A DNA stretch of 62,205 nucleotides from a virus, in the IMG/VR virus record IMGVR_UViG_3300030108_000125, positions 1-62,205 of that record; one strand, written 5' to 3'. The notes under the pieces were generated by a model. The model was given only the letters and a program-made list of their open reading frames with translations, ran no database searches and had not been told where the DNA came from. This document shows, one piece after another, positions 26,586 through 26,722 of this stretch (the first letter of the stretch is position 1; the number at the start of each line of letters is the position of its first letter). A program made the translations under genes and the position numbers.

Positions 26586-26722
26586 TGGGGGTAGAGCCGT
26601 GAGAGACCCCTACATTGAAATATCCACGGCAGTAAGAGGTGTGCATCCTTTCGAGAGTACCTCTAGCACATTGATCTTACACTGGTTCGCAGGGTGGCTT
26701 TGGCTGCTCTGCGATACCAGTT
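26586..26722 (+). ncRNA. Candidate structured RNA, undescribed
   Basis: The 202-base gap 26570-26771 folds well on paper. (1) GGGGT 26588-26592 pairs ACCCC 26606-26610, and GCCGTG 26596-26601 pairs CACGGC 26625-26630, forming an H-type pseudoknot. (2) GTAAGA 26632-26637 pairs TCTTAC 26675-26680, enclosing TGTGC 26640-26644 with GCACA 26666-26670. (3) A hairpin at 26681-26721 has 18 pairs, one bulged U (26715) and a UUUG loop. Several G-U pairs fit only the + strand as RNA. No T tract follows, so it is not a terminator. I do not recognise the class. Confidence 0.6.

Follow-up and report, generated by a model that had tools for sequence, protein, structure and literature searches.

The window analysed here is the whole stretch of 62,205 nucleotides of a viral record (IMG/VR IMGVR_UViG_3300030108_000125). 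The RNA described below lies in a gap between two of its genes, and the locus is organized as follows:

26276-26569: VRR-NUC gene, the 5' neighbour of the gap
26570-26771: gap of 202 bases with the RNA, between the VRR-NUC and DUF6378 genes
26760-26774, + strand: Shine-Dalgarno sequence (TAGGAG) of the DUF6378 gene together with its start codon, as read from the sequence
26772-27326: DUF6378 gene, the 3' neighbour of the gap; the DUF6378 domain comprises residues 98-181
32672-33361: Gp2.5-like SSB gene

In the window's group of phages the gene order is ATPase, HNH, VRR-NUC, the RNA, variable genes, DUF6378, PolA, exonuclease, helicase, SSB and primase. The N-terminal part of the DUF6378 protein looks like a putative helix-turn-helix, and similar N-termini are found in the downstream genes of several relatives. 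No credible Rfam match was found in the gap, even at E 10. The sole Rfam hit of the whole window was Mu-gpT-DE RNA (RF03012; 9224-9276, - strand, 72.5 bits), a second orphan phage RNA of the same genome.

A sequence-only reading had proposed that the gap holds a new structured RNA made up of a possible H-type pseudoknot, a two-part stem and an 18-pair hairpin. The + strand of the gap (26570-26771) folds with a minimum free energy of -72.7 kcal/mol versus a mean of -56.0 kcal/mol for dinucleotide shuffles (z -3.78; none of 200 as good), and the fold of the - strand is weaker (z -2.75). The RNA and the elements behind it can be divided into the following parts:

26584-26682, + strand: conserved RNA core (P1, P2, P3), scored with 94.1 bits by search model R1, 69 bits by R2 and 34.1 bits by R3
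26586-26592 with 26606-26612, + strand: P1, the pseudoknot helix, which covaries with a G-C/C-G inversion between clades; its outermost pairs are weak
26596-26601 (GCCGTG) with 26625-26630 (CACGGC), + strand: P2, the middle pair of which occurs as A-U, C-G, U-A or G-C
26602-26605, + strand: AGAG, which links the two pseudoknot helices and is conserved as AG[A/U]G
26632-26680, + strand: P3, consisting of P3a (26632-26637/26675-26680) and P3b (26639-26644/26666-26671)
26638 (G) and 26672-26674 (UGA), + strand: P3 internal loop between P3a and P3b
26645-26665, + strand: P3 apical loop AUCCUUUCGAGAGUACCUCUA, containing UCCUUUC, which resembles the 16S rRNA tail
26681-26698 with 26703-26721, + strand: P4, a hairpin of 18 pairs with a single bulge (26715)
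26736-26751, + strand: P5, a palindromic hairpin (TCGGGCATATGCCCGA) of which the early region contains ten copies

The 18-pair hairpin with its single bulge was recovered exactly (26681-26721), including three G-U pairs that had been named (26693-26708, 26695-26706 and 26696-26705). The two-part stem corresponds to P3a and P3b, both of which covary, and the suspected pseudoknot is formed by P1 and P2, which covariation shows and which lies beyond the reach of energy folding. It also holds that the element is not a terminator: there is no T tract 3' of it on the + strand, and no intrinsic terminator (hairpin plus T tract, + strand) was found for the window RNA. The gap had further been taken to encode no protein. 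In relatives it is indeed non-coding, because neither its length nor its indels are multiples of three.

We gathered 121 IMG/VR loci via the DUF6378 and VRR-NUC proteins and found the gap RNA at the same position in about 30 of them, with 70-97% identity. A pattern scan on the conserved letters of A1, an alignment of these first relatives, added relatives at a greater distance, and in some of these the RNA includes the stop codon of the VRR-NUC gene. Model R1 led to a second clade adjoining VRR-NUC genes (E 1e-7 to 4e-4), and a pattern scan with clade-2 letters gave 57 contigs. A third clade, far broader than the others, was reached with a pattern fixing the letters of the P2 region only. The models recognise clades outside their training sets. 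R2, from whose training clade 3 was absent, scored most clade-3 contigs with 32-59 bits (best E 7e-15), and R3, trained on clade 3 only, found the window RNA with E 1.7e-5 and the other clades with E 1e-9 to 6e-6. Twelve chance matches to a sister pattern with a broader P2 served as negative controls and reached at most 15.6 bits with R2. In ten other phage records R2 found one convincing copy each, a second place appearing in G002 only at E 0.008.

Relatives were sought among loci reached through patterns or neighbours. In INPHARED isolates, blastn with the window, clade-1 and clade-3 cores found no relative and gave only short terminator-like or chance hits. The isolates closest in their DNA polymerase, namely Rhizobium phage TM3_14A and the Pseudomonas phages KPP25 and Rollin, showed no credible RNA in the scanned part of each genome. 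Pattern hits in genome contigs (L185-190) lacked P2 pairing or P3 and were dismissed as chance. Six isolate proviruses (L252, L258, L264, L268, L272 and L278) have the P2 letters in common and reach 23-29 bits with R3; P3 was not seen in them, and they were left out of the member count. R2 gave no match over 385 Alphaproteobacteria genomes in a search run without a positive control. R3 detected one RNA of its type over 398 Pseudomonadota genomes (L306, 1501-1596, 34.9 bits), which has P1, P2, P3 and the G/UGA loop. Through the L306 copy, a host that can be cultured might be reached.

Covariation was assessed in three sets of sequences. In set A2 (24 sequences; P1, P2, P3a and P3b), 96.3% of the cells were paired versus 73.9% after shuffling, with 148 versus 51 double changes. 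In set A4 (45 sequences of clades 1 and 2), 94.5% of the cells formed standard pairs versus 70.5% after shuffling, none of 500 shuffles was as good, and 286 double changes compare with 98 expected; sliding controls gave 35-51%. In the clade-3 set (15 sequences), P1, P3a and P3b covary, none of which was part of the search pattern, with 93.3% of cells paired versus 73.4% after shuffling and 62 versus 16 double changes. Over the three sets sliding controls amounted to 27-53%. The cell counts represent non-independent events, and the search patterns partly selected the P2 letters and the GUGAGUG/AACC signature. One P1 pair in A4 (C-G in 24 sequences, G-C in 20) is inverted between clades, which supports a helix that is absent from every energy fold. 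The unpaired letters AG[A/U]G, AACC and UGA are invariant. As the earlier reading had it, the + strand is the RNA, because G.U pairs (88 cells) outnumber A.C mismatches (12 cells). These data show a + strand RNA, about 100 nt long, in which an H-type pseudoknot (P1/P2) precedes the hairpin P3 and its internal loop G/UGA. They strongly support the proposed structured RNA, as the stems do covary in the homologous gaps. A chance fold or a conserved DNA element that is never an RNA could draw only on the generally high G+C content of the hairpins; it is refuted by the covariation and by the asymmetry of G.U over A.C, leaving it next to no probability.

The claim that the RNA is new stood in part. 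No Rfam family reaches its cut-off, but the RNA is part of a broad family of phage RNAs with a distant relationship to RF03044 (Proteo-phage-1; Rfam type Gene; sRNA), which is uncharacterised. The gathering cut-off of RF03044 (42 bits) was not reached: the window gave no hit, and the best relative, L265, scored 16.7 bits. The hit on the L265 RNA is sub-threshold but full-length and correctly oriented, and in L277 and L253 partial sub-threshold hits coincide with the RNA. For the reverse comparison, Proteo-phage-1 matches were fetched from the 398 Pseudomonadota genomes and one order. R3 found L303 (40.5 bits with RF03044, just under the cut-off) with 26.6 bits and E 5.5e-5 on the annotated RNA; L307 (61.8 bits with RF03044) and L300 (44.2 bits) were correctly placed top hits with E 0.015 and E 0.23, respectively. 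L303 and L307 were absent from the training of R3. Homology to RF03044 at the same place and strand is detectable via clade 3, since R3 ties clade 3 to RF03044 and the window to clade 3.

Like Proteo-phage-1, the family consists of phage or prophage RNAs with an H-type pseudoknot, UGAGUG (here UGAGAG/UGAGUG) after the 5' strand of P2, A-rich AAACC before P2' and AG after P2'; an upstream hairpin of Proteo-phage-1 recurs in some clade-3 relatives. The layout UGAGUG/AACC/AG was recognised by eye in L299, L300, L303 and L307 when compared with A6; the window RNA has UGAGAG and AUAUCC in place of UGAGUG and AACC. In the fetched members L303, L307 and L300 the pseudoknot is followed by a hairpin that resembles P3 and has N/GUG as its internal loop. 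Unlike in Proteo-phage-1, P2 reads GCNGUG/CACNGC instead of GUCGG/CCGAC, most members are metagenomic phage contigs, and the Rfam model ends before P3. We regard common descent of the two as very probable, although the window family is outside Proteo-phage-1 by Rfam's criterion. The large family of phage RNAs to which the window RNA belongs as one branch is related to Proteo-phage-1 and has variable neighbours.

Throughout the window's group, the RNA precedes the Shine-Dalgarno sequence/start codon of the next gene by 24-100 nt. Neighbours across the family include VRR-NUC, helicase, terminase, portal and ribonucleotide-reductase-like genes, and the downstream gene varies among relatives. L193 and L229 represent a phage without VRR-NUC or replication genes, L221 a distinct PolA phage. 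No partner gene shared across groups was found in the loci compared, and phage bS21 as a partner was absent from 11 records. Terminator-like hairpins with T tracts lie behind the core in L262, L273, L263, L274, L251, L260 and others; they directly follow P3 in several clade-3 relatives and P4 in L193 and L229. The next gene is convergent in L274, L279 and L253, and the start codon comes directly after P3 in L221 and L276. Upstream of the L193 RNA (6542-6640, - strand), a tRNA-like stretch (CTGTGCG ... GTAGGTGCAAATCCTAC CCGCACAG) with a 7-bp acceptor-like stem ends directly before it; ARAGORN called no tRNA there.

The common denominator of all loci is the RNA itself, and it looks like an RNA gene more than a leader of the polymerase operon. 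Among the functions offered before (regulatory leader, ribozyme or free small RNA), a free small RNA is the best fit because relatives have their own terminators, precede convergent genes and adjoin unrelated genes. A competing explanation, which we consider possible but doubtful, is a cis-acting leader: a phage protein or metabolite would bind the pseudoknot, and the P3 loop or the P3a 3' strand would mask the Shine-Dalgarno sequence, in the manner of gp32 on the pseudoknot of T4 gene 32. It would account for the constant spacing in the window's group, for the start codons directly after P3 in L221 and L276, for the attenuator-like position of the terminator between RNA and gene in L193 and L229, and for P3 loops complementary to the Shine-Dalgarno sequence (e.g. 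CCUCCAU/AUGGAGG in L191). However, the downstream gene is not conserved, convergent genes follow the RNA in L274, L279 and L253, and covariation between loop and Shine-Dalgarno sequence is marginal: a phage's own duplexes are slightly better than permuted pairs, with P 0.042 when relatedness is ignored. With variable neighbours, terminators and convergent genes, a gene-specific leader fails for the family as a whole; it may apply to the window's group, in which 24-100 nt separate the end of the RNA from the start codon that follows.

The precedent for such a leader is T4 gene 32, where gp32 binds an H-type pseudoknot for translational control (PMC3014915); here too, the pseudoknot precedes a gene of the replication module. 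Unlike the T4 element, the window RNA does not lie directly upstream of an SSB gene, the next gene being DUF6378, and the family has the additional covarying P3, a much wider spread and often a terminator behind it. Riboswitches of the SAM-II and preQ1 type likewise are compact H-type pseudoknots with an A-rich strand. In contrast to them, there is no Rfam match here, no fixed class of downstream gene among the relatives, and relatives with a terminator followed by convergent genes.

A self-cleaving ribozyme could explain the compact pseudoknot, the conserved core and the occurrence of relatives in unrelated phage contexts. We consider it highly improbable: no covariance-model match to known Rfam ribozymes was obtained, no conserved candidate cleavage site was seen, and the placement of the terminators fits a stable RNA. 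Specific support for this earlier suggestion was thus not found. HK022 put and EAR are the comparison for elements of processive antitermination inside long operons. A role of this kind or in RNA processing would fit the mid-operon position in the window's group and the resemblance of P4 to an RNase III substrate, but relatives at transcript ends carry a terminator of their own immediately after the core, which makes it very unlikely.

Since no terminator follows the window RNA, its release as a free RNA would need processing. In several relatives the terminator would end the transcript; in the window phage the RNA might be made with the replication operon and then cut out, and RNase III cutting at P4 is our guess. 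P4 was seen only in the window's subclade and is kept there with compensating changes. P5 (26736) was absent from the earlier description of the gap. The 16-nt palindrome TCGGGCANNTGCCCGA occurs in ten early-region copies in or at gene gaps versus 0.15 expected (starting at 18061, 18879, 18995, 19445, 19691, 20606, 22154, 24227, 25490 and 26736). In relatives of the L009 type one palindrome pair is changed to G-U (TCGGGTAGATGCCCGA), as would suit a hairpin formed by + strand RNA, and L030 and L034 have a different palindrome, GTTAGGGACGTCCCTAAC, in the place of P5. Because of the ten copies and the other palindrome in two relatives, P5 is probably a separate element. Two direct repeats were observed in addition. 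An exact 34-nt repeat, TTTGATACCAGTACCCGAATAGCGCCGAGCCTCT (18915-18948 and 19017-19050), lies in the gap before the early genes and raises the question of whether it is a promoter or origin element; the other, of 46 nt and 89% identity, is found at 21824-21869 and 21949-21994.

Many P3 loops look like the 3' tail of 16S rRNA (CCUCCUUUC; sequence used for comparison, GGAUCACCUCCUUUCU). CUCC is present in 35 of 41 P3 loops versus 7.35 expected from shuffling, and the longest match to the tail averages 5.74 nt over 57 loops versus 4.21 nt in shuffled loops (sd of mean 0.12). Examples are ACCUCCUUUC in the L158 loop and UCCUUUC in the window loop; the loops of L193, L229, L253, L262 and L276 have no such motif. 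This enrichment for anti-Shine-Dalgarno sequence (CUCC, UCCUUUC, CCUCCUUUC) is shown, though less firmly than the fold. The 16S-like loop and the invariant unpaired AG[A/U]G, AACC and UGA could also belong to a decoy on which the tail or pseudoknot sequesters a ribosomal, nuclease or defence protein. As the loci compared share no partner gene between groups and phage bS21 is absent, we regard such a decoy as quite unlikely.

Our best guess for the function, made from sequence comparisons, is a small RNA that regulates translation. The pseudoknot would serve as a stable platform or protein-binding knob presenting the P3 loop, the loop would pair with the Shine-Dalgarno regions of target mRNAs, and this pairing would repress or retime their translation during infection. 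The anti-Shine-Dalgarno role of the loop is the weakest step of the argument. Taken as a whole, a phage RNA gene with a loop acting on Shine-Dalgarno regions has, in our estimation, about an even chance of being correct. A further-reaching version, in which a dedicated RNA in many unrelated phages mimics the 16S 3' tail on a pseudoknot and competes with ribosomes for Shine-Dalgarno sequences as a general RNA-based takeover of host translation, seems unlikely.

To our knowledge, there are few phage RNAs whose tertiary fold is conserved but whose function is not known. The RNA described here is real, strongly conserved and folded, with one known, uncharacterised Rfam representative of its kind; its function is unproven. 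An orphan Rfam family found here in scattered Pseudomonadota genomes is now linked to a far wider set of phages in metagenomes, and a third covarying helix, P3, is added beyond the Rfam model. The P3 loop is thereby named as a candidate functional loop and testable active part. If it is true that this loop acts on Shine-Dalgarno sequences, the family would represent a compact phage RNA tool for the control of translation.
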